A stretch of 38,872 nt of DNA from Chrysochromulina tobinii (taxonomy: Eukaryota > Haptophyta > Prymnesiales > Chrysochromulinaceae), in the NCBI GenBank assembly GCA_001275005.1, contig JWZX01003296.1, forward strand, positions 1-38,872. Reading direction: 5' to 3'. Position 1 is the first letter of the stretch; the number at the start of each line of letters is the position of its first letter. This document shows, piece by piece, positions 6,906-38,713 of this stretch. Both the position numbers and the translations under genes were made by a program. The notes under the pieces were generated by a model. It was not told the DNA's origin and searched no databases. It saw nothing but the letters and a program-made list of their open reading frames with translations.

Positions 6906-7543
6906 AACGCCGGGCGCGCCCAAGCATGCCGTGGAGGTGTGCATGGCGGCGCCGGTAGGCGCGTAGCTACCGCCGCCCCGGCCGGCCGGGGGCTCGGCGC
7001 GTCGCCGGGCGGAGATACCCGGTCTCGCGGCCGAAGCCCCCGGGACCTCGGACCAATGCCTCGGACCCGGACCACCGACTGAATTGTCAAGGTGAATTGT
7101 TCGACCACTCGAACGTCTGAGCTCGCTCCGGCGCCCTCCCGTGAGCCGCTGCGCGCCACGAAGCGGCCACCGCGGAGCCATTGCGCAGAGCGACACTCAG
7201 GTCGAGGAGGCCATCCAAGCCATCCTCTCCGCCAAACCCGCGCCCAGACGTCAGAGTCGGCGCGGGAAGCCTAGAGTCGCGCACTCGTCACTTTCTGAGG
7301 CTCTCCGAACGCAAAGCGGCACGTCAACTATCAAACCACGTAGACCGTACCCTGACCGAACCACGAATGCCACGTCCGCGCGCGCGGCGTGTGGCGGCTC
7401 GGCTGCCGACATGGGAATGCACACCGATGTTCGAGGGCGTGTGTGCCCAACCCTCTCCGCGCTCTCCCCCTCTCGCGCGTCTTGCGCAAGGCGCCCACTC
7501 AAAGTCGCGCGTGCTCAGTGCGCCGCGCCGTCCCGGCAAGCAG
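6906..7543. other. GC-rich region downstream of TPI, no gene recognised
   Basis: High-GC sequence with several short palindromes (for example CCGGCCGGCCGG near 6978). It did not match any rRNA or snRNA core that I know, and the open frames are typical GC-rich chance frames. Confidence 0.4.
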
Positions 7544-8320
7544 TCATGCCTTTTTGGCATTGGCGATGGCGGCGACGATCTCAGCGAATTCGGACTTGAG
7601 AGAGGCACCACCGACGAGGAAGCCATCGACATCGGGGCACGCCGAGAGCTGGGGCGCGTTTGCGGCGGTCGCGGAGCCGCCGTACTGGATGCGGATCGCC
7701 TCCGCCGTCGCCGGGTCCTTGTTCTCGGCGATCCACTTGCGCAGGGCCGCATGCGTTTCCTGGGCCTGCTCGGGCGACGCGGTCACGCCTGTGCCGATGG
7801 ACCAGACGGGCTCGTAGGCGATGACGAGCTTCTCCGCGTCCATGAGCGGGAGGAAGGGCTTGAGCTGCTGCACGCAATACTCCAGCACAGCCTCGATGCC
7901 CTTCTCGCGGATGGAGAGTGGCTCGCCGATGGCGTACACGCACTTCATACCCTTCGAGTACAGGTACTCGCACTTCGCGGCGAGGAGCGCGGAGCTCTCA
8001 GGGGGCGTGGGCAGGCCGAACTCGCCACGGCGCTCCGAGTGGCCGATCAGGCACCACTTGAGCCCCATGTCCACCATCTGGTCCGCGGCCATCTCGCCGG
8101 TGAAGGCGCCGCAGCCCTTGAAGTTGCAGTTCTGCGGAGTGCACCAGACGCCCTCCTTGAACTTCGTGTACACGATGCCGACGTGGAGGTTCGACGGGCA
8201 CACGTAGACATCGCAGTCAGTCGTGTCGCACGCGTTGATGTTCGCCACCAAACCATCGAGCTTCGAGACCTCAACCGGGTTGCACTTCCAGTTGCCACCA
8301 ACAATGGGACGGCGCGGCAT
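7544..8320 (-). CDS. TPI: triosephosphate isomerase
   Basis: 258 residues forming a complete TIM barrel that interconverts dihydroxyacetone phosphate and glyceraldehyde 3-phosphate. Visible landmarks are GGNWKCN with the catalytic Lys (about residue 12), IGHSERR with the catalytic His (about 95), AYEPVWSIGTG with the catalytic Glu (about 165), YGGSAT and the phosphate-binding VGGASL near the end. The ATG at 8320 is chosen because MPRRPIVGGNWKCN matches the family start; a further in-frame ATG at 8368 adds 16 residues with no obvious targeting character. No plastid leader is seen, so this is probably the cytosolic isoform. It is divergent from the downstream amidase gene. No intron. Confidence 0.97.
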   Translation of the reverse strand: MPRRPIVGGNWKCNPVEVSKLDGLVANINACDTTDCDVYVCPSNLHVGIVYTKFKEGVWCTPQNCNFKGCGAFTGEMAADQMVDMGLKWCLIGHSERRGEFGLPTPPESSALLAAKCEYLYSKGMKCVYAIGEPLSIREKGIEAVLEYCVQQLKPFLPLMDAEKLVIAYEPVWSIGTGVTASPEQAQETHAALRKWIAENKDPATAEAIRIQYGGSATAANAPQLSACPDVDGFLVGGASLKSEFAEIVAAIANAKKA

Positions 8321-8718
8321 CTTGTGATGTGTTTGGCTGCTGCGCGGCGAAGAGGCGAAACAGCGCACATGACGTCAGTGCCACACCTCGGATTGCGCGC
8401 GCGTGTGCGAGGGCGGCGCTCGCCCCGAGCGTGAGGCGACGTGTCGTGCGTGGCGAAGCACATGGAACTCACACGACACGGAGATCGCGTGAGCTTGTCT
8501 TCGCTCGCAACACGTGGCAGCGCACAACTTCAAACCTCGTGGCTGGTTGCTGTCCTATAAAGCACGCTGTTCATGTCATGATGTGCCGGAACCCATTTTC
8601 CGCCGCGTCTGCCTTGCCAAAAATGGGTTCACCTCGGTCTTAGGAAAGACTCGTCACCCACGCTGCCCACCGAGGCTGCGGCCCTGGGTGCCAGCATTGG
8701 GCTGACTCGTTTGCTAGA
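8321..8718. promoter_or_regulatory. divergent intergenic region TPI / amidase
   Basis: 398 bp between divergent start codons. A TATAAA at 8556-8561 lies about 160 bp before the plus-strand ATG and is a possible TATA box. A near-repeat of AAAATGGGTTCAC/ACCCATTTTCC arms lies around 8590-8630. Confidence 0.35.
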
Positions 8719-9738
8719 ATGGCGTGGTGCTTTCAAACACGCGACACCAAGGACAGATCCAGGTCATTCGAACCGTTGTGGGTTTACGACCTCGTCAAGC
8801 ATGTGAAGACGGGCGATCTCATCCTCACCTCGAACAAGGACTTGGGAGCGAAGATCATCCAATTCTTCACAGCGACAGATTGGAACCATGTGGGGATCAT
8901 CGTGAAGCCGTCTCCAAACAAGGCCTATCTAGTCGAGTGGGGCGGCGGGTTGTTTGTGTCGGAGCTCGTTGAGCGTCTAGAGGAGTACGCTGAGTGGGAC
9001 ACGGTCGATCTCGTGCTGCGATCGCTCAGCTTCGAAGAGGGCAGCACGGATAACCGCAGGGTCGTCGAGGACCGCATGGAGAAGTTTCTCGACATGCTTT
9101 TCCGTGAGAGCAAGGGTTCCAATCGGGGCATCCCCCTGGGTGACGTGCTCCGGGCCGCCCGCGACCAGTACTCGACCTGGACCGAGAGGAGCGACGCGAT
9201 CGTGGTCGACGACCTCGATGTGCTCTTCTGCAGCAAGACGGTGGCCGTGGCGTACAAGGCAGCGGGGCTACTCGCGCCGAGCCGCAAGGCGAGCCGTTTC
9301 GTGCCAAAGCACTTTGCGTCCGAGTCGGACAAGTACCTCGACCTGCAGGCCGGCGCCCGACTGGGTCCTGAGCAGCGCATTACCTTTGAGTCTCGTCAGC
9401 TCAAGGACGCCATTCACAACCTGCTCAACATGCCGCTCATCGGGGTGGTGACGCGCCCCTTCACAGCGCATGCGATGCGCGAGGGCAAGGCGGCGCAGCT
9501 CGTCCAGAGGTTTGTGCGCAAGCTTGCCGCGCGTCGCGAGCTAACACGCCGAAGGGCTGTGGGCAAAGCGAAGTCGACCAAGCTCTACGTGAACGCTGAG
9601 GACCACGGTACGCGGAAGCGCGCGCAGCTGCTGCAGCAGGAGGCGAAGAAGCCGCACAATACGCCCAAGGACACGCTGCACTCGTCGTGGCATGGAGTGG
9701 AGGTGCGAGCTCAAAGCACTGGCGAGCTCCTGCTTTGA
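8719..9738 (+). CDS. permuted papain-like (YiiX/NlpC-P60 type) amidase
   Basis: 339 residues, single exon. The N-terminal half matches circularly permuted papain-fold enzymes of the YiiX/YebB type: GDLILTSNKDLGAKIIQFF, then WNHVGIIVK with the catalytic His, and after about 120 residues LFCSKTVAVAYKAAGLL with the catalytic Cys. The family hydrolyses or transfers acyl or amide groups; eukaryotic members often act on lipids, but the substrate here is not evident. The C-terminal part has a basic IQ-like stretch LVQRFVRKLAARRELTRRR (about 262-280), a possible calmodulin-binding site, and ends in a charged tail. No signal peptide or membrane segment. The start ATG is the first in frame and puts the permuted motif near residue 30, as usual. 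Confidence 0.8.
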   Translation: MAWCFQTRDTKDRSRSFEPLWVYDLVKHVKTGDLILTSNKDLGAKIIQFFTATDWNHVGIIVKPSPNKAYLVEWGGGLFVSELVERLEEYAEWDTVDLVLRSLSFEEGSTDNRRVVEDRMEKFLDMLFRESKGSNRGIPLGDVLRAARDQYSTWTERSDAIVVDDLDVLFCSKTVAVAYKAAGLLAPSRKASRFVPKHFASESDKYLDLQAGARLGPEQRITFESRQLKDAIHNLLNMPLIGVVTRPFTAHAMREGKAAQLVQRFVRKLAARRELTRRRAVGKAKSTKLYVNAEDHGTRKRAQLLQQEAKKPHNTPKDTLHSSWHGVEVRAQSTGELLL

Positions 9739-10226
9739 GGGCTAGCTAGACCGGACTAACATGTGAGAAGCTGGTCGTTCTACAAAAATAGCCCGCGGGG
9801 CGGGGCTCATTTCGTTTTACATCGAGAGACGCGCCCGTGATCGCCCCAGAGCTGCGGAGGTGGGCACGTTGGCTACAAGTACAAGCGCGTCATCCGTTCC
9901 ATCTCGACCACAACCGCACACAACTGTGCGTGATGGTTCCATCGGCCAGCGCCCCTCCCGCCCTTACATTACGAGACATGCTACATCGTTCAGGCATCCC
10001 TCACTACCTGCCTCGCACGCTGAACGGAATCCGGATTGCACAAACACCACCACCACCACCGTCCGCAGCCGGCGCCAGCCGCTCCGGATTGCGACACTCA
10101 ACGCCCCCACTCGAGCCACTAACCACAGTCCAACCACCCCCCCTGATCAGCAGGCGCGCTCCCCACGCGCATCACTGCCGCCTGTGCTCCCGAGCTTGCT
10201 CCAAGCGTCTTTGATGCCCGTCGCTG
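9739..10226. other. convergent intergenic region
   Basis: Two 3' ends meet here. It holds a short CAC trinucleotide run near 10045-10063 and otherwise nothing recognised. Confidence 0.4.
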
Positions 10227-12941: not shown

Positions 12942-15900
12942 TCAGTGACTAGCGAGCGCCACGGGCGAGAGGGCTGTGTTGGGCGCCACGGGCGAGAGCG
13001 TGCACTGTGTGGCCGCCTCGCGAAGCAGACGCACCACCTCGCCGAAGGCGCTGAGCGCGGCCTCGTTGGGCACGACGGCGGCGGCGTATCTCGGGGAGCC
13101 GCTCCATCACGCTGCAAAGCAGCAGCGTCGCCGAGTTGCTTCCAGTGCGCCCGACGGCCGTATGGACCGCTGTGATGGCCTCTCCCGATAGTGATTGGTT
13201 GAGGCGCCGCTTGAGCCGGCAAGCTAGGAAGCCCCGCGCGGCTGCCTGCAGCCGTGTCGCGCCGTTCGCCCGTCGGCTCAGGTAGCGGCGGGCAGCACTT
13301 TGCAGTTTCGTATGCTCAACGGTCAGGCCGTAGTCGTCGGGCGTAAAGTGACGGCGCACGCCAAGACTCTCCAGCAGCCTTGGAAAGAAGGCGTGGCAGG
13401 CTGGATGGAGGCAGTGGAGGCGAGGGTTGAGTGAGTACGACTGGAGAGCTGGCTGCGAGGTGGGCACGAATTCTGCCAATGTGCGGCTGTTGTAGGTGCC
13501 GCAGCGCGGGTTGTTGCAGGAATCTGCACTGAGCTGCGTGCTGCAGCACGCCATGCAGAGGTAGCGTGTGGGCCCGGCCTCCGCAGGCTCAGCCTCGCTC
13601 TGCTTACTGAGCGCCACTTCGGAGGGCAACCTCATTACCACACCGCCCAAACTGGTATGCTGCCCTCTCTCATCTTGAGCACTGACGGGCACGCATCGCA
13701 AGCTCGCTAGGTCTTCCTTCCATTGTGGCTCGATCTGGTCCCAATCATCCGAATCCGCGAGTGCGGCGTACAGTGCCACCACCTGCTCTATGGACGGCTG
13801 GAACTCCTCTTGGCCCGCATCATGGCCCGCATCGGCCGCCGCGGGCGGCGAGATGGCACGCAGCTGCATGAGCAGCACCTCAAGTGGAACTCGCTCGTTC
13901 CAGCCTAACATGTCCGCGAGCCTGGGCGGAGCGAGTGGGGCATCGGACTTGAGCACCTGACTAGAGGCCGACACCAGGAAACGTTTGGCGTAAGGCTGTA
14001 CGGCGGCGCACGGCGCAAAGGGAGTTCCATGCACGCCCGCCGGCCAGGGCACGCCCGGCTCGCCCTGCGCCATCACAGGCAGCTTCAGATCTCCCAGGAG
14101 CTCCACCACAAAGTCCTCACTGCTCATCGGTGCCACGTGTAGCCGTTGAGCGGGTACCCGCACGGGCTGTTCGCCAAAAAGGGTCGCGTGGTTGAGCACA
14201 AGGCAGGCCCAGACAGCCTCCGAAGCCTGGCCCGACTCTACTCGCCGCGCCGCCGCCAGGATGCCGCGCCGACTGTCCATGCCAAGCCGCTCGAGCTGCG
14301 CCGTCGGAACGGTGCTACGCAGCGTGGCATCTGGCGCAAAGAACACAGCGTCGAACCCCTCCTTGTTGACCTCAGGCGCCACGTTCGACACGGTATCTGG
14401 ATGAGTCAGCTCACTGAGTCGAAGCAGTCCTAAGGGAGAGTTGATGCAGGGCAGATTCTTCAACGCGTCGAAGGCGCGCTCGCCACCTTCGCTGACGAGG
14501 CTGTCCAAGTTGCTGAGCATATGCGCGACAAACTCGCCGGCCTCGGGTACGGTCTGCATGAGCGAAGACAACCGCGGGAAGATCTCTTCGATGTAAAAGT
14601 CAACCGTCTTCAGCTGCGGCACGCCCAGCAGGCCGAGCAGCCGCTCCTCATCGACATCCGCGCACTGCAGCCATCGCGCTCCAGCCGGGCCGGCCAGACC
14701 CTTAAGGCAGGCACCGACCGAGAGCCACCACGCTGGATGCGGCTCATCCACACGTCTCGCACCGAGCAACTTTGGCAGGAGTGACACTTGTCGATGCCAT
14801 CCCGATTCTGCCTGCACTGCCTCAGGTATAGTGAACACGGGTAAATCAAGGATGGCTGCTTTCAGATTGTTCACCACGAGGCGCGAAAACCCTCCGCTCG
14901 TATTCACCGAGCTGAGAATGGCAAGCAGCTGCGGATAACAGTGCAGTACCCAACGTCGCAAAGCCGCACCATTCTCTGGAGCGGAGACCCAGGCACGAAG
15001 CTCTGGGACACACTCACGCAAAAGGGTGCCGACCCACACGTCGAGCTGAAGATTCTTATCCTCACGGCTGTCAGCGTCCATTCGCTTCACAGCCATCAAG
15101 TTGGAGCACAATGCACCCTTCACCCTGACTGGGTCGGAATGGCCAGGCATGCCAGAGGTCGTCTCGTGTGCACGGGCGCTCGCAAGCTTAGTGACAAACT
15201 CGAGGAGCTTCCCTTCGCCTACACCGTTCATGGCGTGTGTGTCGACCACACGGTGCACCTGATAGAGGAATGCGTCCACCCAGCCTGTTGGCTCTGAAGC
15301 CTCTCTGGTGAGCCCAATATCAGTGAGAAACTCTGGGCTCAGCAGTGCAAGACGCGGAGCCTGGTTGCCTCGGAGATCCCGCTGGAGTTGGAGTGTGGCC
15401 CAATGCAGCTGCCACGGCGCCTGGGGCGCAGCAAGGATGGGCAGAAATGGCAGACCTGAAAGCTCGTGCATGTGAGGGTTTCCAGTGATTAGGAGCGGAG
15501 TGTCGAGAGTGATGTGCTCGTATAGACAGAAGAGCAGCAGCTTGACTCCCGAGATGCGGCTGAGGTGTTCCAGCCAGGCCATCTTGCCAGGCCACTGAGC
15601 TTCGGTTCTGCGAAAGAATCTGCGTGCTACCTGCGGATCGATCTGCTTGAGCGTCGACAAATCGAGCGCCTGCAGTGCGTCTTGGAGCAGTTTGAGTACC
15701 GGCGAAGGCAACACCACTTCCAGTACAGCCACGCCCGCGCGCGAGAGCTCGTCGTTTGCCGTCTGCCGAAGTGCCCTCCTGATGCCATCATTGGGCAGAC
15801 CTTGCTCTGCTCGCAGCATCACCTTTGGCTCGTCACGTGCGGGCGAAAGCCAGCGCTCGCGCCCAGGCAGGACCTTGAGATGTACAATGCGGCGATACAC

Positions 15901-18900
15901 TGCCTTCACCATGCTTTGAAACGACTCCGCGACCTCCGTTGGCCATAGCGTGAAGAAGTGTCCCGGCGGCACCATTTCCGCTACCTTGACCAGCACCGCA
16001 CTGTAACACAGCGAGACAACATCCGAGATCAGCAACTGGTTCCAGAGGGCCTTGACGGAGGCTTCACCCTGCAGCCCATCGCGCATCGTCCAGAGCTTCT
16101 CGCGCCCATCGATCACTTCGAATGAGCCGTTCACGTGCACCGGCAGGCCAGTCTTAATCGGCAGCGGGAGGGACGAGAAGGCACGGCCCTCGATAGGCTC
16201 TTGCTCAAGTTTAGCAGCCGCCCCCACCCACGGAATCAGCTTCAGACCAAGCCCCTCGTTGCTCAGGCACAAGGTACGCATCTCTTCCGTCATCGTCAGC
16301 GCATTGCAGACTAGCCATCGGCTCTCTGATATTGGCTGCTCGGGCGCAATTGGAGAGGTCACGCGCATCGTGAGCATACGACTCTCGATGATCGCTTCTG
16401 CCGTCACTAGATGTTGATACAGCTGCTCGTGCTGGGGCATACTCTGCACGCACTGCGCAACAGCACGCGCGCCGCTTGCCCACTCTTCCTGACGCTCGAC
16501 ACGGAATCGGAGCTTAGTATGGAAATTACTAATGTTGCTTCGGGTAGGCCGTCCTCCCGGGTCGCGTGCGTAGACTTCAATGCGGCGCACATTCTTCAAG
16601 AAGAGTAATATCTCGGGGCCACGCGCGCGCAGACGATCCAACAACTGATGCGCCTTGTCGTGCGAGTACGGGCCGCCTAGCTTCGATCTTTCGCTAGCGC
16701 GCCGAAGCGGCAGGCGTAACAATGTGCCGCGGTACCGAGAGCGCATATCCCAGTGAGTGTCGCCATCATCACCACCGCCAAAGAGGCAAAGTGGACTAAA
16801 CTGGTCAGCAAAGTCGGTAGGGCTTGAAGCTGCGTCGCCATCATAGTCGGCACCGACTGCCAGTTTTACCTCAGTGCCGCCGTCAGCAAAGGCGCGCCGG
16901 TGGGGATCAAAGAAGAGCCAGCGGTGGTTGCTGAGTAAGGCGGGAGTGTCGGTCAGGTGATACATGGAGTTGATTCCTGGGCGGAACAGACCGCTGGTGG
17001 CTCGCCCAGCCTGGCTATCGGACCGGATGTAGCGGATTGCAAAGCAGTCTTCATCATCCGGAAGGCCAACCCCGTTATTGTAGCAGTAGAGACCCGGTCC
17101 CTGCGACGACTCATCACCTTCGTATACGTGCTCCTGAAGCTGAGGCCACAACGACAGCGTGCCGTGCTGCACGCCCTCTTCTTCCAGCACCAGACGTACG
17201 ACGGTGGCGCCCGAATCGTCTGCGTGTTGCAGCAGCTCGTCCAGGACTGCATCACCATCAGGGTACTGGCCAAGTATTCCTTTGATCTCATTGAGGATGG
17301 AGTCCGACATGAACGCCTCGTCAGTACCCTGTCGATCTCCCTGAAGCAAGGCGCGAATCGTCTTCTCCGCCGGCTTCTCTTCAAACGGCACCGTGCGAGC
17401 CTCAGAGACTGCCCATTTAACATCGGCGGCATCAAAGGCTTGACGCACTCCGAGCATGTCCATGACTGTCTCACAGTGCTGCTGCAGCCACGGTGGCAGC
17501 TTGAAGAGGTGCGGCATGAGGTTAGCGCCGCCGCACCCGCTCTTTGCGACGCGCAATGGAGCGACGAAGCAGAAGCGATCTTCGAGCCACACACACGCAG
17601 TGACTCCCACCCTTTGAAGGTGCGCCGAATCTTGGTCAGAGGGCTGCTCAGGCTTCAAGCTGCACAGTACACGATCCAGAGTCTCGTAGAGCTTCCTCAT
17701 GTGCCCGCTGAACTCTGTGTGTTGCGCCCGATTCAGATCGTCCACGGAGACCAATGCCATGGCTTGAAGCTGTGCCAGTAAGACTGACAAAGGTGGCGGC
17801 TGGTTCCACCCGAAGAAACTTTTCACCTCGGCAGGCAGCGGCGAGAGATGGCAAAGCAGGCGTGTGGACGCGGAGACGAGTGGAGCATCACTCTCAGGTC
17901 GGACGTCGTACGCTCTGGCACGAGGCGACGAATGTCTCTCCTCAGGCAAGGGCAGGACCCCACGGTCGTCGACACGGACTGGAAGCCACTCGATACTACA
18001 CATCTCCGATCCGAATGCCTCAAGAGCCATCGTGGTGTCAGTCTCGCCACAGACGAGCAAAGTGTCATTGCAAATATGCTGCAGGAGAGCCGCTGAGAGA
18101 TCGCAATCTCCGTCCATTTGGCTGCTCTCGATAGCCAGGTCCACGACAAATCGACGCGTCACGCTGGTCCTCAGACCGAGTGTCTCGAGGGCCTGAAGCT
18201 CGGAAGGATCCTCGCACGTCAGCAGCCACCTGAGCTGGATGAAGCGCGCGTGACAGGTTGCCTTGCTCAGGGCTTCTCCCAGTGGAGTCATGAGGATGCA
18301 CTTATGAAAGAGCTCCGAGGGACGGTGCAGTGAGCCGTCTTCCGACGGCACAAAGGCCATCTCCATCAGTGCTGCTTCAATCTCGGCGCCCATCTCTCCC
18401 TCTTTGAGCTGTGTCAAGCTACGCAGGACCAGGTGCATCACGTGATCGCTGAGCTCTTGTGGCAGATCATCGATCCTAGGCAACACGTGCTGCATGTAGA
18501 ACGAGCTCAACTCAAGCTTGGGCACATTGAGATTATGCAGGAGTTGGTTGAGTTTCACGTCCGTGACACAGAGGCCAACCGCGGGGTTTGTGAAGTTGCG
18601 TAGAAAGATGACCCTCTCGTGGCCAAGCTTGCAAAGCTGATCGAGTAACTTGGCGTTGAAGCTGTCGACGCCGACATCGACGGGCGGTAGCATGTGCACT
18701 TCCAGATCGATGGATGTGAAGTCCTCAGCAAATCCTGCGACCTGGAATATAGGTAGCGAGCGTACAAGGCGCGATTTCGTGAGCACATCATACGAGGCGC
18801 CCACGTCCTCCTGGCCAGCAGTGCACGTTTGCTCATGCGCGATCACCACCTCGTATGTGCTCACGAAATCGCAATGGTCGCATTGGAAGATCTCTTCGCC

Positions 18901-21694
18901 GTCCTCTGCAGGACGAGCATCAGACAGGGCATTGCGAAAAACGTGGACGCCTGATGTCAGGAAGTCGCGCAGGGAGTGGCGTTCAGCAGGTGTAGCCTCG
19001 ACGAGCCGTTGCTCTGCGAGGAGCGCCGACGTCCTACCTGATGCTGCGCTGTCCCGATCTGCTGCTGCATCTAAAGGCGTGGAGCGCAGCGCCTCTTGCA
19101 GCGCTTGAAGTGCCGACTCGACGCTCAGCAGCGGTGTACAAGCAACCAAGTCAGGGTGCATCGAGAGGGCCTCCGACTGATGCGCCTGGAGCCGATGCGT
19201 GTACCACTCCTGCACTGCCGGGTGGAGATACACACAGCCGAGCCGCTCCAGGCATCGTTGGAGAAGATCACTCGAGCCGTCCGGCACCTGCAGCATCGTT
19301 GTGTGGCCGAATGCGTGGGCAGTCCCGTCGGTGGAAGGGATCATCGGCCAGGAGTTGAACACGTCGGGGACAACACTCGCTGCATGATGGCGTGAAATAA
19401 AGGCCCACACGCGTGCGAGCTCCGCCGCGGAGCGTCCGTCCTCCACGTCGTCGTCATCTGCCAGTCGCTGATGCGTCTGGTGCTCCCAGTGTGCCGGTAG
19501 CACTAAGCGCGGCAGCAACTCCAGAGGCAACTTTGGCAGCAAGCTAAGCTTGCCACTGAAAGCATCGACGTCGACGAGCTCGTGCAAGTGGGCCCAGAGC
19601 AGAGAGGTAGGATGGACAGACATCACGAGGGCTGGCGTCAGGCGCAACATCAAGTCCTCGGCCGAGCACAACACGACGCAGATTGCGCTGGATGCGAAGC
19701 AGGTTCGGTTGCCGTTCCTCAACGAGATGAGAGGCAGCTGGCTCACCTCGTCGTGGATGCGGCGCGCTTGCTCCTTCTCCTCTGCTGAGGACGCCGAGGC
19801 TGGGTCGAGTGCTTCACTGCAAAGATCTGAAAGACAGTACTGAAGCAGCTCTTGGCACTGCGCATCGTTGAGCTCGCCCTCCCAGCCGCTGTGCAGGGTC
19901 ACAAGATGGTTGCGCACCACAGCAGGGGTGGCTTTTGCGATCGAGTTGGGGTTGGCGCCGCTCCGTGAGCTTGTGTGCACACAGGCGCTACGCAGCAGCA
20001 TCTCCACTCCGGGCGGCGGCTCGACGATCGGAAGCTCGAGGAGCATTAGCGTCGAGCGCAACTCATGGTCCATTTCGGCCGTGGGGAAGAACGCGGCGGT
20101 GGGTGCGATCCACTGTCCGGCGCCTTTGCCGCTCTCGAACCGAAGACATTTGCGCTCGAGCAGCAGCACGTACCTGTGGAAACGGGCGGCATGAAGGCGT
20201 GAGGGCAGAGCCCCTCGGGGGCTGGCTGCGTGAGGGTTCGTGATGCACGATGCGTTACAGCTCATCGACTAGCTGAGCCCAAGGCTCCGCTGGTCGAGCA
20301 TGCGGCCAGATCTCGTAATACTCCGACCAAGTGTTCGTGAGCTCTTGCGCCGCCTCGATCAAGGCCACGTAGCACGGTGCCACCACCGACGCTAACAGAG
20401 CCGCGTTCCAGTTGGCTTTGAGCAAGGCCAATCCGACGCCCGACGTGTCGGTCCAGACGTCGCGCCGGCTGGTGCTCAGTTCGAAGAAGCCATTGATGTG
20501 CACTGGCAGGCCTGTGTGCGGCGGCAGCGGAAGCGTGCAAGAGGGCCGGCCTCGTACTGCGAGCTCAATGCGCGACCGTTTGAAGCTCGGGCCAGCCCCC
20601 TCGAGCTGACGGGTAGGCTGCTGCAGTCGTGCGGCCACGCCACCCCATGGCAGCGGCCTGAGCCCACGGCTGAGCACGTCTTGATCCACGCTCATCTCCA
20701 GTGCTTTGCCGCCACCAAAGGCTTGCGCGACCAACCAGGTGTACGCCTCGCCTTCGGCGCTGCCGGCCTGGGACAGTCTCACGCTCAAATGATCCAAAAA
20801 GTGGTGCACGCCCAGCCGTGTGAGGTCCTGCGTGGCTCGTCTGTCCAGTAGCTCTCGTAAGTGGGCTCTCGGCATTGAATCGGCGGTTCCACAGGCGCAC
20901 GTCTTCTGCTTGGCGAGCAGCCGAGGCGCCGCCTCGCCGACCCGCCATTCATAGACTTCGACTGTGTGCACGCACTGCAGGAACAGGACGAGATCCGGCA
21001 GCGACTCCACGAACTTCTTGAGCAGATCGTCGGCGTCGCTCAGCGAGTACGGCCGCGGTGAGATGCCTTCACCAGCCGAGCCGCGAACGTGGGCCCTGGT
21101 GCGCAGCGGCAGCCGAAAGATGGTCCCGTTGAATTCTTTGGCCGGGTCGCAGCCAAAGATCCGCCATGGCGCGAATTGATCAGGCGCACTGTCGACGTGT
21201 CGCTGGTGGAGGTTGAAGCCAATGCCGGTGTCGCCGTTGGCGAGGTGCTTCTGGCTGGGGTCAAGGAACAAAAGACGCTTGCCAGTCAGAAGACCCGGGC
21301 AGTCGGTCACATGATAGCAGCTATTGAACCCCAGCCCAAACTTGCCAGTCTTGGTACGGCCGTCCGCATCATTTTTGAGCGAGTTGCCCACGCTCTGAAT
21401 GCTAGCGAGGTCCTTCTCGGTGAACCTTTCGTCGTTGTACGTGCAGATGGCTGGGCCCTGGAATGAAGCGAGGCGACCCTCGAGAAGTAGCTTGCGGTCC
21501 GGATGTTTTCGACGGTCGAGCATGACCTTGAAAGTGCTTGCGCCCGCATCGTCTGCATTTTGCACCATCTCTTTGAGTAGCCCATCCTCAGGGTAGTTGG
21601 CGAGACATTCGCGGAGGCGTGCGCAGAGGTCGACGCGCTGGCCAAACTGGAACATGTCCTCAAGAGGAGACTCGCGCCGAGCCCGCTGAGACAT
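12942..21694 (-). CDS. sacsin-like giant protein with GHKL ATPase repeats
   Basis: Exon 1 (21694-20259) begins MSQRARRESPLEDMFQFGQR and holds the first sacsin repeat: KEMVQNADDAGAS (the GHKL N-box), then GKFGLGFNSCYHVTD. An 85-nt intron joins VDEL to YVLLLERK in exon 2 (20173 on). Exon 2 is a single 7-kb frame: a Cys2His-type finger near 18823-18898 (CDHCDFV...H..C), a second sacsin repeat near 17240-16590 with degenerate ATP motifs (LQHADDSGA, LFRPGINSMYHLTD), a Cys-rich ribbon CMACCSTQ...CNNPRC (near 13540) and two IQ motifs (LQSAARRYLSRR, LQAAARGFLACRL; 13200-13310). Sacsin relatives act as Hsp90-like chaperones. Near 13085 the sensible frame shifts by one base and ends at a TGA (12944-12942); without the shift the frame ends at 12949. 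Confidence 0.85.
20174..20258 (-). other. intron of the sacsin-like gene
   Basis: Donor GTAACG (20258), acceptor TTTCCACAG (ending 20174), 85 nt, phase 2. Splicing makes CT+G = Leu and gives VDEL-YVLLLERK, bridging two frames that otherwise end or start within it. Confidence 0.85.
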
Positions 21695-31549: not shown

Positions 31550-32751
31550 TCACGCGAGCTGCGGCTGCGCGGAAGCCACCACCACTCCGACGGAGGGCCC
31601 TTGATCGCTGTCTGCAGTTGCAGCGGCGACATTGACAACGCCCCGATCCTCCTCGGAGAAGTCCGATTCCCTCAAGCCGCGCTCCTCGACGAGGATCTTC
31701 CCATTGGCCACGTAGCCGACGTGCGTAGCCGCGATCGTCTCGCAAAAGGCGCGATCGTGCGACACGACGACGACCGCGCCTTCATACCGGCCGATAGCGT
31801 CGAGCAGTGCCGCGATCGCCTCCACGTCGAGATGATTCGTCGGCTCATCAAGCAGGATCACATTGTACGGCGACAGACAGAAGGTGGCGAGCGCCACGCG
31901 CGCCTTCTCGCCGCCCGAGAGGTCACGAATCTGGCGGAGGGCCTTCTCACCCACGAGGCCGAGGGAGCCCATGATGGTACGGCACTTCTCTTCTGTGATA
32001 GAAGGGTCGGCCACACGCACGGTCTGCGCCACGTACTCGCACGCACCCATATCCTGCGGCAGGTCCTGAGCCAGGTCCTGTGCAAAGACGCCCAGCTTGA
32101 GGCGCTCGTCTTCGAAGCGCATCGAGGGCTTCTCGAGCTTGATCGTTCCGGAGAGCGCCTTGAGGATCGTGGACTTGCCCGCTCCGTTAGGCCCGCGCAA
32201 GATGAGACGCATGCCCTTGAGGACCTCCAGATTCGCCTCAGTGATGATGTCCTGCTTGCCCAAAGGGTGGCGGATGTTGGCTTTGCGAAGCGCGAGAGGG
32301 GCCATGCCGCAGGAAGGTGGCTTCGCCAGCGTGAGGACGGGCTTCCTCTGCTCGCCGATGAGGAGTGCCTGCGCCGCCGCCTGCTTGATCGCGAGCTTCT
32401 CGAGCTTGCCTTTGCGGTCGGCGGCCTGGCTGGCCTTCGAAGCCTTGGCACCCATACGACCGATAAAGTCCTGCATCCGCTTGCGCTCGCGTTCCTGCGC
32501 CTCGATCGTCGAGCGGATGCGTGCTTGCCGCTCCTCACGCTCTGTCAGGTACTTGTCGAAGCTCATCGACTTGTAGAGCTCAAGCCGACCTCCCGCCACC
32601 TCGGCGATCGAGTCGGCCGCTCGGCGCACGAACTCGGCGTCGTGCGAGACCACGAGCACCGTACCGTCATACTCTCCGACGTCTGCAACGTGGCACCGAC
32701 TCGATCCCAGTCACAGTCAGTTATAGCGCCAGGGCAGCGGCATCATCAGAC

Positions 32752-33812: not shown

Positions 33813-36255
33813 TCAAAGGAAGCGCCAGAGAGCGCACTCGACGCCGGCGCCGGGGCCCATGGTGATGAACATGCCATACTCACCGCGTTTGGCGATCTTC
33901 TCGCGCAGCAGCGATTCGTACGCCCAGAGGAAGGATCCGCTGGACATGTTGCCCATCGCCCGCAGTGAGTTGAGCGAGTGCCGGATGGCGTGCTTCGAGA
34001 GCCCGAGCGAGTACATGACGCAGTCGAGCACCTTCTTGCCGCCCGAGTGGACGACCCAGTGCGCGATGTCCTCCTTACGCAGCCGGTGCTTCGCCAGCAG
34101 CCGGTGCACCATGCCAGGGATCTTGAGGCCCATCAGGTAGGGCACCTGCGGCGAGGCCATCAGCATGCAATCAGCATGCAATCAGCATGCAATCACCTGT
34201 GATGAGGGAGGCCATCAGCATGCAATCAGGTAGGGCACCTGCGGCGAGATTGTGAACGAGTACTTGTGATACTCCTCGAGCCACGTGTAGCAGAGGGAGT
34301 CGAGCGAGTCGGGCAGCAGCAGCGACTCGAAGCCGTAGAGGGCCGGCTTGGGCGCGGCGTTCGTTGAGGCGATCGGACGCTCGGGCGTTGGGCAGAGCAG
34401 CACGGCCGCGGCAGAGCCATCGCCGAAGAGCGAGTTGGTGAGGGCGACGGCGAGGTCGGGCTTGCTGGCGTCCCAAACATAGCCGGCCGAGACCACCTCG
34501 CATGCGAACATGACGGCGGGTACTCCCGGGTTCGCCTCGGCCCAATGGGCGGCGGTTGCCATGCAGTTGAGCCCGGCGTGGCAGCCCATGCCCACGATGT
34601 CGACGCGCTGGATGGTCGAGGGCAGCCGCAGGTGGTTGGCCACGTGGGCGGAGAGGCCGGGAGAGGAGAAGCCGGTCGTGGTGCACACGACGAGGAAGCC
34701 CACCTGATGAGGGGTGCAATCAGGTGCAATCAGGTGCAATCAGTGGTGCACACGACGAGGAAGCCCACCTGATGAGGGGTGCAATCAGGTGCAATCAGGT
34801 GCAATCAGTGGTGCACACGACGAGGAAGCCCACCTGATCGAGCGCCACACCCGCCGCCTCGCACGCCTGCGGGATGGCGGAGGCGGCGAGCTTCTTCGAC
34901 CAGCGTAGGTGCTTGGCGAGCAAGCCACCCTGGGTCACCCCACCAGCACGCTGCTCGGCACCGATCTCGGCCAGCCGGCGAGACTCGATGTGGGCAGACG
35001 AGTAGATGGCTCGCATGCGAGGGTCGTCCACGCCGAGCAGGTTGGCCACCTCGGCTTGTGTGTACCGCTCCTCCGGGGCGGCGGTGCCGATCCCGACGAG
35101 CACGGCGCGAGGCTTGTACTTGGCCTCGTACAGCAATCCCTCGGCGATGCGCTCCGAGCGGAGCGAATCCTCGTGTGCGCCGCCGCCCACACGTGCGTCG
35201 ATGAGCATCTTGGCGAGCGTGCGGGCGAGCGCTTGGTCGGTGCCGAGCTTGGCGGCGAGCTCGAGCGCCGCCGTGAGCGGTGTGGGCGAGAGGGAGAGCG
35301 CGAGTCCCCATTCGAGCGCGCTGTTCGCACTCAGTCGCCCATGGAAGAGGATGACTTGCTTCGCGCGCGCGGCGCCCACTGCCTCGGTCAGACGCGTGCA
35401 GCCGCCCGCGGCAGGCACGAGGCCGAGGGAGGTCTCGGGCAACCAGAAGCGCGCCCCCGGCCCGACGAGGCGCACGTCGCACGCCAGTGCCCACTCGAAC
35501 CCGCCCGCGACGGCGGCGCCCTCGACGACGGCGATCGAGACGAAAGGAGCCTTGGCAAGCGATTCGAAGACGCGCTGGCTCTGGAGCTCGAGAGCGTCCA
35601 TCGCGCGCGGGTTGGAGACACGTTCGAGGTCGGCGCCGGAGCAGAAGAAGCGAGGGTCCGATGACTTGAAGATGACGCAGCCGCACCGTTGGGCTGAGAG
35701 CATCGGGATGAGACGCTCGAGGGCATCGAGCATTGGGCCGTCGTACGCGTTCGCGTAGCTCGGCCGGTTGATGGTGACGATGGCGAGCGCGCCCTGGCGC
35801 AGAAGCTGCAGCGAGTGCGTGCCGAGTGCATCGGGCGTCACGTAGCGCGAGTCCTCCTCGAGTGCCCGCGGCAGCGCCGCCTCGGACGCTGGCACGATCA
35901 GCGCATTGAGATGCTGCTGGAGCAGGGGGAGCGCCGACTCGGGCTCGAGCTGTGGAAGACGCACGAGGAGCCACTCGGTGCGTCGTCGGAGCTCGGCCAG
36001 TTCAGTCAGCCCGGCCACCTCGCGCAACCATGCAGCGGATGCAAAGGGGCGGCGGGCCGGTTCGGTGAGCATGCCGCCGCCGACGAGTAACGCCTTGTCG
36101 GACAGTTCGGCCGCCGCGCTCGCCATCGCCTCGCCGAGACAGTCGACGCGCGTGCGGCCGACGGCGAACCCGCCGTCACGGTCGCATCGCCGCTGGCCGA
36201 GGGCGTGCGCGAGGTGAGCGTTGGCGAGGGCGGTGCGACCTCCCGCCTGGCCAGC
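33813..36255 (-). CDS. enoyl-CoA hydratase fused to DpgA-like type III polyketide synthase
   Basis: Exon A (to 34834), exon B (34703-34239) and exon C (34145-33813) join in frame. The crotonase domain has FFCSGADL (oxyanion hole), VAGGFEWALACD and WLPETSLGLVPAAGG, so both hydratase Glu are kept. From about 35120 the type III PKS begins, VLVGIGTAAPEERYTQAEV. It carries the catalytic Cys in VDIVGMGCHAGLN, then TNSLFGDGSAAAVL, the catalytic His in HWVVHSGGKKVLD and the Asn in MGNMSSGSF, ending TMGPGAGVECALWRF. The GMGCHAG context is closer to bacterial DpgA than to chalcone synthase. DpgA condenses four malonyl-CoA, and DpgB/DpgD-type crotonases help to release 3,5-dihydroxyphenylacetyl-CoA; the same chemistry is inferred here. 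Upstream coding in the same frame extends past ATG 36126 (ALANAHLAHALGQRR, GFAVGRTRVDCLGEAM), so this is the 3' part of a longer gene. Confidence 0.85.
34146..34238 (-). other. PKS intron 2, born by internal duplication
   Basis: 93 nt between CCGCAG|GTGCCC copies. A 23-bp exon segment (TCGCCGCAG plus GTGCCCTACCTGAT) is present at both ends; between them are TGATTGCATGC tandem units. In-frame TGA codons make it non-coding. Removing GT..AG gives ISPQ-VPYLMGLKIPG, the expected continuous sequence. Confidence 0.85.
34704..34833 (-). other. PKS intron 1, two 65-bp tandem copies
   Basis: 130 nt made of exactly two 65-bp units. Each starts with the 26 nt that also begin the downstream exon (GTGGGCTTCCTCGTC...) and continues with three TGATTGCACC units and CCTCATCAG. 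One unit alone would shift the frame; excising 130 nt restores ALDQ-VGFLVVCTTTG. Confidence 0.87.
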
Positions 36256-38713
36256 ACACGTGAGAGAGCGCCTGGCGCGTCCACCTGGGTGGCAAGTCGC
36301 TCGAGCCGCGCCATCACATCAGCCTCGTCTTCACACGGCGGCGCCTCGAGGACGCCCCACTGGACGAGGGACTCGAGGTCGGCCGCGGGAGTCGCGAGGA
36401 GCACGCGCATGAGGGATCCGATGCGAGCAGAGCGGCCGAGCTGCCACACGCGCGCGCCCGGCACCATTTTGGCTTGCCAGCCAGCGAGGCGCACACACAC
36501 TGCCGCCGAGGCCGCCAGCCGGTGCTTGCATGCAAGGCACAGCTCGAGCGCGAGCGCGCCAAGCTCGCCGCGCATGAGCGCCGTGGTGGGCACTTGCGCC
36601 GTGAGCGCGTCGAGCGCGTCGAGCGCCGTGGCGAACGCCTCCCTCGAGGCGCACGTGTTGTCGAGCCGGAGCAGGTGTCCGCTCTCTTCGTCGAGGTCGA
36701 GGAGCACCCCGAGCGTGGGCCCGAGCGGGGGAAGTGGGGGAGGCGCGCCTGCACCCATCGCCGAAGGCCCAAGCATCATCTGCGCGGAGGTGCCATGCTC
36801 GAGTTTGGCCATCTCCACCGCCTCGAGAGTGGTCAACGCCTCGGTGAGGGCCCCGAGCGCCTCCGCCGTTAGTACGCTGCCCGTCAGCCGAAGCCGCACC
36901 ACACACCCGAGGCTGCCCAGCGGCTCGGTACTCACACGCACATTCAGCGGCGCGCCGCCTGCGTCCGCCGTGCCAGCCTCGGTCGTCTCAGCCGCGGCTC
37001 CCTGGGCGGCGCGGGCGCCCGCCCGCGCCCATTCGAGCTTCCATTGCCACGCCTCGGTCGGCATGATGAACTGGTCGGGGAAGAAGGAGGCGAGCTGTTC
37101 GAGCTGGGCCGACGAGATCTTGGACGAGAACGCATTCACCGGCGGGGCCGCCTCGACGACATCCACTCCTCCTTCTCCCCCTCCTTCTCCGGCGTCCGCG
37201 CCGCTCGTGGCGGCTGCTGGCGCCGTGTGCCACACTTTGAGCATCGCCCGGAGCTCCTCGGGGCGCGCCATCCAGATGGTATCCTGGAGCAGGTAGCGGC
37301 AAAGGAGAAGGGAGGCGCCGTGCGCGGCGCGCGCGAGCAATGCGCCGAGCCACGCGCCCACCTCGGCCGCGGGCGCGTCCGCCGCCGCCGCCTTGGGCGC
37401 CACGATCCATTGTAGCGCGCCTACGCGCAACGCCTCGGTGGTGCCCAGTGGGGAATCCTGCGCCATGAGCGCCATCGCGACGCCCGCGCCCACGTGCTTC
37501 GCGAGGCGGAAGGCGAGGGTTCCGGGGAGCGTGCCCGAGGCGGCGCCAAAGTCGAGCGTGACGCTGGGCGCCGCCGCGCGCAGGTCACACGCGAACGCGA
37601 TCTGGAGCGCCGTCGCGCCGACCGATCCGGTGCCCACGAGGACGCACACGGTGGGCAGGGGCAGCGTGTTGAGGCTGGCGAGTGCCTTCTCGAGCTTGGT
37701 TAGCCATGAGACGAGGCGCATGTTGAAGTGGCCGTTGGCACCGCCGACCGCGTGCAGCGCGAGCAGCTGCTGCGGCATCGGCAGCCGCCCCGCCCTCTCG
37801 GACGCGAGCATCCGGAGGACGAGGCACGTGGGCAGGGGCGTCACCGGTGGCGGCGAGCGCGGCTAGCCCGCGGTTGAGCTGCTCGAGCACCTTGCTGAGC
37901 TCGTCGAGGGAGATGAGCTCGAGCTCGGAGGGCATCGTGAGCACCCACGCCTCCTCGGACCGGTGCACCTCGTACTCGAGCGGCACGAGAGGTGGCAGCG
38001 GGGCGTGCGCGGCCGCCGCTCGCCCGACCGCGTCGGCGATGACGAGGGACGAGACGGCGAGTGAGTGGCCGATGACGTCGGTGCCCGCGACGGACGAAGG
38101 TCTGGAGCACGATGCGCCGGAGCAGCGCGAGCGGCACATTTGGCGGCACGGGCAGCCGCGCCGCGTGGAGCGCCGCCACGGTGGGGCACAGCGCGTGCAC
38201 CACGTGGCAGTCGAGCAGTTCGTGCGTGCCCGCCGGCTGCGTGCGCCAGAGCAGCTTCTGCGCGCGCAGCACGCCCGCGTGGAGGGCGAGCGAGGCGAGC
38301 CACCAGATGGGGAGCGGCACGTACGGCTGCGTCGCGCCCGTCGCCTGCGACGCTGGCCGCGCCGGCAGGCACGTGTCTGCCGTCCCGAGCCGGAAGTCGC
38401 ACGCAAGCGCGAGGCTGAGCGACAGGTCGCAGAGCGCGCCGTCGAGAGCGGCGACGAGCAGGAGGCTGCGCTTCTGCAACTTGGCGAGCGCGAGCTCGTA
38501 CCGCTGCAGCGCCGCCGCCGTGCACACGGGCACGACCAGCGGCCCGCCGCGGATGCACAGCACGACCTTGGTGGACTTGTCCCTGTCGAGCTGCTTGCAC
38601 AGGCGCTCGACCGTCTCCGTGTACTCGACGAGCGAGGTCGGCGGCTCTACCTCGATGACGGTCGTCTCCGGCGGCACGAGTATCGACTCGGGGTCGGGGC
38701 CGGGCGTCTCCAT
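36236..38713 (-). CDS. crotonase-fold (DpgB-like) repeat region, 5' part of the PKS gene; three frame breaks
   Basis: Collinear with the PKS gene and without an intergenic gap. Domain 1 starts METPGPDPESILVPPET (ATG 38713) and reads KVVLCIRGGPLVVPV, AALQRYELALAKLQKRSLLL, SLALACDFRLG. Domain 2 (from about 37860) reads TCLVLRMLASERAGRL, KLEKALASLNTLPLPTVCVL, QIAFACDLRAAAPSV, GTLPGTLAFRLAKHVG. Domain 3 (about 36950-36100) reads VVRLRLTGSVLTAEAL, ALELCLACKHRLAAS. All resemble the crotonase fold, and the first two resemble DpgB, but the hydratase Glu are not recognisable, so non-catalytic or structural roles are possible. The sensible frame changes at about 38090 (CGTCCGTC, a 4-nt duplication), about 37850 and about 36245. 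No canonical introns explain these. They are either assembly indels or real lesions. An alternative start lies at 38839. Confidence 0.65.

Follow-up and report, generated by a model that had tools for sequence, protein, structure and literature searches.

The question raised by this locus is whether a eukaryotic alga carries a Dpg-type pathway module, crotonases and type III polyketide synthase (PKS) together, as one polypeptide. The window, i.e. the whole stretch of 38,872 nucleotides that was analysed, is contig JWZX01003296.1 of Chrysochromulina tobinii. From the N-terminus, the gene product was found to consist of three DpgB-like crotonase domains (D1-D3), a hydratase domain (D4) and a DpgA-type type III PKS. 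All parts listed by the first-pass annotation, namely three crotonase-like segments, a hydratase with two Glu and a complete type III PKS, were present on one strand, and the hydratase-PKS join lay within a single open frame, as had been proposed (Table 1). The ATG is the start also used by a near metagenomic relative, P0019, and the end of the contig lies 159 nt upstream of it. Because the same layout recurs in other proteins, it cannot be ascribed to chance. With a probability of roughly 0.7, we consider the gene to encode a single-chain (3,5-dihydroxyphenyl)acetyl-CoA synthase of a haptophyte, of organisation DpgB-DpgB-DpgB-hydratase-DpgA and with a product predicted from sequence.

Table 1. 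Position of the fused gene and of its parts in the window
Feature	Position	Strand	Remarks
Whole gene	33813..38713	-	ATG at 38713, stop codon ends at 33813, ~1558 codons
D1	38029..38677	-	DpgB-like crotonase; approximate bounds; spans frame break near 38090
D2	37197..37992	-	DpgB-like crotonase; approximate bounds; spans frame break near 37839
D3	36207..36911	-	DpgB-like crotonase; approximate bounds
D4	35137..35880	-	Hydratase/dehydratase domain, both catalytic Glu
Open frame: linker, D4 and first 96 PKS residues (end of exon 1)	34834..36135	-	
Intron 1	34704..34833	-	130 nt, GT-AG
PKS exon 2	34239..34703	-	Catalytic Cys ~34583-34581
Intron 2	34146..34238	-	93 nt, GT-AG
PKS exon 3 and stop codon	33813..34145	-	Catalytic His ~34049-34047, Asn 33950-33948

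The bacterial family ties of the domains are what a bacterial contamination or a chimaeric contig would produce, in which case no alga would carry the gene. This explanation was ruled out, with a residual chance that we regard as negligible, by the two GT-AG introns, by the actin, sacsin and Rab-GAP genes of the same contig and by a haptophyte-like ABCF neighbour; the fusion was also found in the green alga Cymbomonas tetramitiformis. The earlier claim that a eukaryotic alga encodes a DpgA-like PKS joined to crotonases, here DpgB-like ones, was in agreement with these data; an algal host is also indicated by 58 light-harvesting matches in the assembly (counted per exon). In a tree comprising three named haptophytes, the ABCF gene (31553-32659) grouped with Prymnesium polylepis (95/91), a row only 27% filled, inside a clade with Emiliania and another Prymnesium (100/99). 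A published haptophyte 18S primer had no match in the assembly, a result that carries no weight for the assignment. The Cymbomonas row of the ABCF tree also lay beside the haptophytes and away from the remaining green rows (98/97), which is the pairing seen for the fused PKS and may reflect gene exchange or a long branch. Elsewhere on the contig, two long open frames with sacsin domains (12952-20265 and 20258-21694) are probably one large sacsin-like gene.

On six-frame translation, the coding sequence fell into four stretches (frames -1, -2, -3 and -2) followed by two more exons. The frame shifts at three places (near 38090, 37839 and 36135, within ~2 kb), so that the window lacks a continuous exon 1. 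Residues 1-1305 of P0019 aligned with these stretches as four consecutive segments of 97.6, 98.8, 98.4 and 99.8% identity, and this protein runs uninterrupted across all three places before ending just inside intron 1. The fusion is therefore regarded as real. The proposal of a single-polypeptide crotonase-PKS module was further strengthened by the Cymbomonas protein (P0002), which is complete end to end. The three breaks themselves are assembly errors or strain lesions, single-base slips being frequent assembly errors. Three frame changes over so short a distance could also indicate a gene decaying in this strain, with true lesions, no full protein and an open copy in relatives only; we hold this to be very unlikely, since D4 and the three PKS exons are free of stops and frame breaks, and since P0019, open at all three places, represents a cluster of 32 member sequences.

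The PKS exons were scored separately against the curated DpgA model (NF042429). DpgA was the sole NCBIfam match of exon 2 (143.1 bits) and the best of exon 3 (141.6 bits, the next family reaching 27.7), and the PKS part of exon 1 scored 57.5 bits with the same model; in Pfam, exons 2 and 3 corresponded to the N-terminal and C-terminal parts of chalcone/stilbene synthases. The curated cutoff is 425 bits, and all eight relatives scanned whole remained below it (best, P0002 with 386). The Cys/His/Asn triad expected of a complete PKS was recovered as C137, H284 and N317, residues shared by all 14 aligned rows; the row of the window, which is one of them, also retains the DpgA motifs around these positions. 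This locus gave the only strong DpgA match in its own genome; two further matches (C897 and C1946) scored at most 42.5 bits and are probably KAS III-like.

Phylogenetic analysis of the PKS was based on 54 DpgA-type rows and on an outgroup of five bacterial type III PKS of other kinds. The DpgA-type rows comprised all 15 rows of proteobacterial type, 22 from the 65 other bacterial loci and 17 taken as eukaryotic; among the last, one is Cymbomonas, three come from MMETSP or EukProt and the rest were assigned by tree place and architecture. The 54 rows grouped together (100/100), which upheld the DpgA assignment of the first-pass annotation within a sampling of bacterial outgroups and no plant chalcone synthase. 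The 17 rows taken as eukaryotic formed a single clade inside DpgA (100/100), with long branches, and the 22 actinomycete-type rows grouped at 95/99 with the eukaryotic clade outside them; modest support (87/73) placed one Myxococcota row (L096) outside all others. The tree supersedes an earlier one with a very long outgroup row, in which P0005 was placed beside bacteria (95/63). The position of the eukaryotic clade argues for a PKS of DpgA type that did not arise from within the sampled actinomycetes. Together with the hydratase-dpgA-dpgB order found in a metagenome-assembled genome titled Deltaproteobacteria (L073), it speaks against an actinomycete source.

Assignment of the crotonase repeats had to rely on weaker similarities. 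The best NCBIfam match was DpgB for both segment S1 (38096-38713; 29.9 bits, E 4.7e-7; none in Pfam) and segment S3 (36237-37844; 48.6 bits, E 9.3e-13; ECH_1 in Pfam below threshold, 23.7 bits), and segment S2 (37846-38094), scanned alone, matched nothing in NCBIfam or Pfam. The curated DpgB cutoff (NF042431, 140 bits) was missed by these pieces as well as by the whole of P0019 (95.4) and by the best of the eight relatives scanned whole (101 bits), hence the name DpgB-like, and not DpgB. Stretches matching the DpgB model numbered three in P0019, three in P0002 (D4 among them) and four in P0003.

Domain profiles were then built from the bacterial DpgB, DpgC, DpgD and hydratase sets of fetched dpgA loci; for scoring, Glu comparison and tree, the rows D1-D4 of the window (labelled W) were taken from P0019. 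A DpgB set was preferred by 11 of 11 domains (D1-D3 of P0019, Cymbomonas and P0003; D2-D3 of P0001) and by none of 14 control crotonases, five of which came from the genome of the window and nine from near bacterial dpgA, five of these nine scoring as DpgD. It is this preference, and not the height of the scores, that supports the tie to DpgB, because D1-D3 reached 20-65 bits with the better, proteobacterial, DpgB set, and ordinary control crotonases 63-105. In the crotonase tree, D1-D3 joined DpgB (100/98). Each of them formed its own cross-species group (100/99, 100/93 and 97/85, respectively, with many long branches), and this grouping by domain suggests that the triplication may predate the split of the lineages.

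At the catalytic positions, D1 has Glu at neither, D2 has Gln at the Glu144-equivalent position, and D3, whose scores are the weakest of the three, keeps the equivalent of Glu144 and has lost that of Glu164. Gln at position 144 was found in 14 of 14 DpgB of proteobacterial type and in all four D2; all but one of the 63 other DpgB had Asp or Glu there. Contrary to this signature, the crotonase tree placed D1-D3 nearer to actinomycete-type DpgB (94/93), and the sequence evidence on the source of D1-D3 is thus conflicting.

The remaining crotonase, D4, is the only one of the four domains with both catalytic Glu. These are kept in D4 of three out of four four-crotonase proteins, that of P0003 having lost one. 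It had been taken for DpgD, an assignment that was abandoned. Segment S4 (34834-36237) scored 134.3 bits with a general enoyl-CoA hydratase model of NCBIfam vs 77.1 with DpgD (Pfam ECH_1, 114.4), and D4 itself 75.9 bits with the DpgD set vs 251 with a proteobacterial hydratase set. The latter value, from P0019, compares with 260 for P0001, 231 for Cymbomonas, 85.9 for P0003 and 84-137 for the 14 controls; P0003 is not set apart by score, since it falls within the control range, and part of the high score of D4 is due to selection, since the hydratase set was found with the D4 profile. In the tree, D4, that of P0003 included, grouped with the hydratase set (99/99), and DpgD formed a separate clade.

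When long proteins were searched with the PKS part, 25 matches were obtained. Crotonase domains and PKS were combined in P0001 (PKS 72% identical), and the complete arrangement of four crotonases and PKS was found in P0002 of Cymbomonas (49%) and likewise in P0003 (47%). The fusion is therefore not confined to a single alga, the layout occurring also in Cymbomonas and P0003. In a search with PKS alone, the close metagenomic relatives P0026 (89%) and P0027 (80%) were followed by DpgA of bacterial type at 41-46% identity, among the best 120 of 2927 matches. A shorter form was represented by 16 proteins of 877-1657 aa (P0006-P0018 and P0020-P0022), six of them from MMETSP or EukProt. Pfam ECH was found in none of the 16, and NCBIfam crotonases in none of the four scanned. 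Direct HMM scoring of the N-terminus of six rows gave at best 14.4 bits and no tie to crotonases. By profile comparison, the N-terminal alignment matched actinomycete-type DpgB (86.5%, positions 310-404), D2 (80.2%, 301-404) and proteobacterial DpgB (66%); values were 16.6% for DpgD (at 63-95), at most 2% for D1, D3, D4, DpgC and the hydratase set, and 0.1% for the ABCF and PKS control profiles. One member, P0017 (1657 aa), carries an FAD monooxygenase (PF01494) in addition to the N-terminus of the shorter form and the DpgA-type PKS, an architecture that hints at a possible hydroxylation step in its lineage.

The two introns interrupting the PKS are both in phase 0, as judged from exon lengths. 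Perfect direct repeats span their splice junctions (AG|GT), of 31 nt for intron 1, which also contains two copies of a 65-nt repeat, and of 24 nt for intron 2. No further repeat of at least 16 nt with AGGT and a spacing of 40-400 nt was present on either strand of the window, and none occurred in 20 block-shuffled windows, each searched on one strand. P0034, encoded on a 15.6-kb contig, is continuous across both intron positions, as are P0001 and P0026, the short contigs of which could be transcripts. These features fit a recent gain of both introns by tandem duplication, for which a model is given in the available text of PMC4974935. Both introns also contain the pattern TGATTGCA-(2-3 nt)-TGATTGCA, which gave 420 + 489 matches in the genome vs 0 for the reversed pattern. 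The motif may mark arrays inside introns (examples at C33:13316-13575 and C229:13098-13204), and its CTGAT core may be branch-point-like.

Bacterial loci were fetched for 80 of 352 confirmed dpgA loci. None of the 80 had a crotonase within the dpgA ORF, and there is no precedent for the fusion among them; a crotonase ORF lay just downstream of dpgA on the same strand in 77. Fifteen loci of proteobacterial or myxococcal type were selected by gene layout and the titles of their records, two with divergent titles (L050, Klebsiella; L088, Bifidobacterium) being retained for layout and tree place. None of these 15 had a second crotonase-type match downstream of dpgA. Within flanks of unequal length, a hydratase was found upstream of dpgA on the same strand in at least five of them (L021, L025, L039, L041 and L073), at 59 nt in L073 and 3.3-5.4 kb in the other four. 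In L073, hydratase (7180-7935), dpgA (7995-9050) and dpgB (9103-9813) follow one another on one strand. The fetched flanks of these five loci contained no DpgC-type match.

The absence of a DpgC-like dioxygenase, noted by the first-pass annotation, extended to the algal genome: a search with DpgC gave six matches, all confined to the crotonase part of the query (148-399) at 28-37% identity, and the ORFs of the two with lowest E (C1253 and C1311) gave a better score with the DpgD than with the DpgC set. Contig C1253 carries two equally scoring crotonase matches separated by 9 kb (9359-9895 and 18341-18877), a recent duplication or an assembly repeat.

A mode of action can be proposed along the lines of the bacterial pathway. 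According to the accessible part of PMC6274091, four malonyl-CoA are condensed by DpgA, with a likely cyclisation from C8 to C3; DpgB and DpgD increase the efficiency of DpgA according to that of PMC5132015. The algal PKS domain would likewise join four malonyl-CoA, with ring closure through the C8-C3 aldol reaction peculiar to DpgA. Since D4 alone keeps both Glu, the dehydration that aromatises the ring would fall to D4, and D1-D3 would be tethered, largely non-catalytic helper domains, in line with the gain in DpgA efficiency brought by free-standing DpgB in bacteria. As no DpgC was found, oxidation to the glyoxylate is not expected, and the product would leave as acyl-CoA or free acid. The whole may derive from a bacterial cluster of hydratase-dpgA-dpgB type.

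Another possibility, which we judge improbable without dismissing it, is that the fused PKS is of DpgA ancestry but makes a changed product (e.g. a pyrone, an alkylresorcinol or some other resorcinolic acid built on a different starter), the crotonase repeats selecting the substrate. The long eukaryotic branches of the PKS tree, the strong divergence of D1-D3 and the shorter proteins devoid of Pfam- or NCBIfam-detected hydratase are in its favour, as is the statement in the available part of PMC7073580 that what algal type III PKS produce is not predictable. It is at variance with the two Glu kept in most D4, with the DpgA motifs of the window PKS and with the identity of the retained partners, which are those of the Dpg pathway. 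Synthesis of (3,5-dihydroxyphenyl)acetyl-CoA by a single chain remains our preferred reading.

On a broader scale, these proteins might represent an ancient eukaryotic type III PKS assembly line, a proposal to which we give even odds. DpgB copies, hydratase and DpgA would have been fused once, before the lineages leading to haptophytes, Cymbomonas and other protists split or exchanged the gene, providing an algal route to (3,5-dihydroxyphenyl)acetyl-CoA in which dead crotonase repeats would serve as cyclisation or scaffold domains. Since PKS and accessory enzymes are covalently linked, a single protein suffices for testing what DpgB does. The fusion also leads one to expect an acid or CoA ester of resorcinol type in haptophytes, and might account for a set of algal type III PKS of unassigned products. 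Among the matches listed, and within titles and abstract starts of the open-licence literature, neither a single-chain nor a eukaryotic Dpg system was described.

Several known systems invite comparison. Type III PKS are mostly lone homodimers; the 'Steely' enzymes of Dictyostelium are type I-type III PKS hybrids. P0023, such a hybrid, resembles the algal protein in that a type III PKS forms the C-terminal end of a long chain of several domains, but the partners are type I PKS domains and its type III PKS is not of DpgA type (159.8 bits with the DpgA-type profile vs at least 281 for P0001-P0018 and P0020-P0022). P0004, named by its source as DpgA fused to (S)-3,5-dihydroxyphenylglycine transaminase, is another DpgA fusion of the same pathway; it differs in that the partner belongs to a later step, no crotonase domain is listed and its PKS groups with bacterial DpgA. 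The 'CHS/STS-like' sequences of Prymnesium parvum, Karlodinium micrum and Oxyrrhis marina (one haptophyte and two of dinoflagellate lineage), which in the available text of PMC7284882 split first among algal type III PKS, possibly belong to the same family as the fused PKS; the words DpgA, fusion, crotonase and enoyl are absent from the main text of that article as available.

The Dpg enzymes of actinomycetes that produce glycopeptides and VemA-D of venemycin, as described in the part of PMC5132015 at hand, likewise associate a DpgA-type PKS with DpgB-like crotonases and use malonyl-CoA, but as separate proteins and together with DpgC and DpgD. In the alga, there is one chain with three DpgB-like domains, DpgC was not found and the hydratase belongs to a branch other than DpgD. 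The same three families occur in the five proteobacterial or myxococcal clusters with an upstream hydratase, where DpgB has Gln as in D2. These clusters differ by their separate genes and by a single dpgB downstream of dpgA, as opposed to three copies upstream of the PKS in the alga. In L073, the hydratase precedes dpgA just as D4 precedes the PKS domain, and its gene order partly foreshadows the fusion by which a bacterial pathway module would have become one eukaryotic gene.
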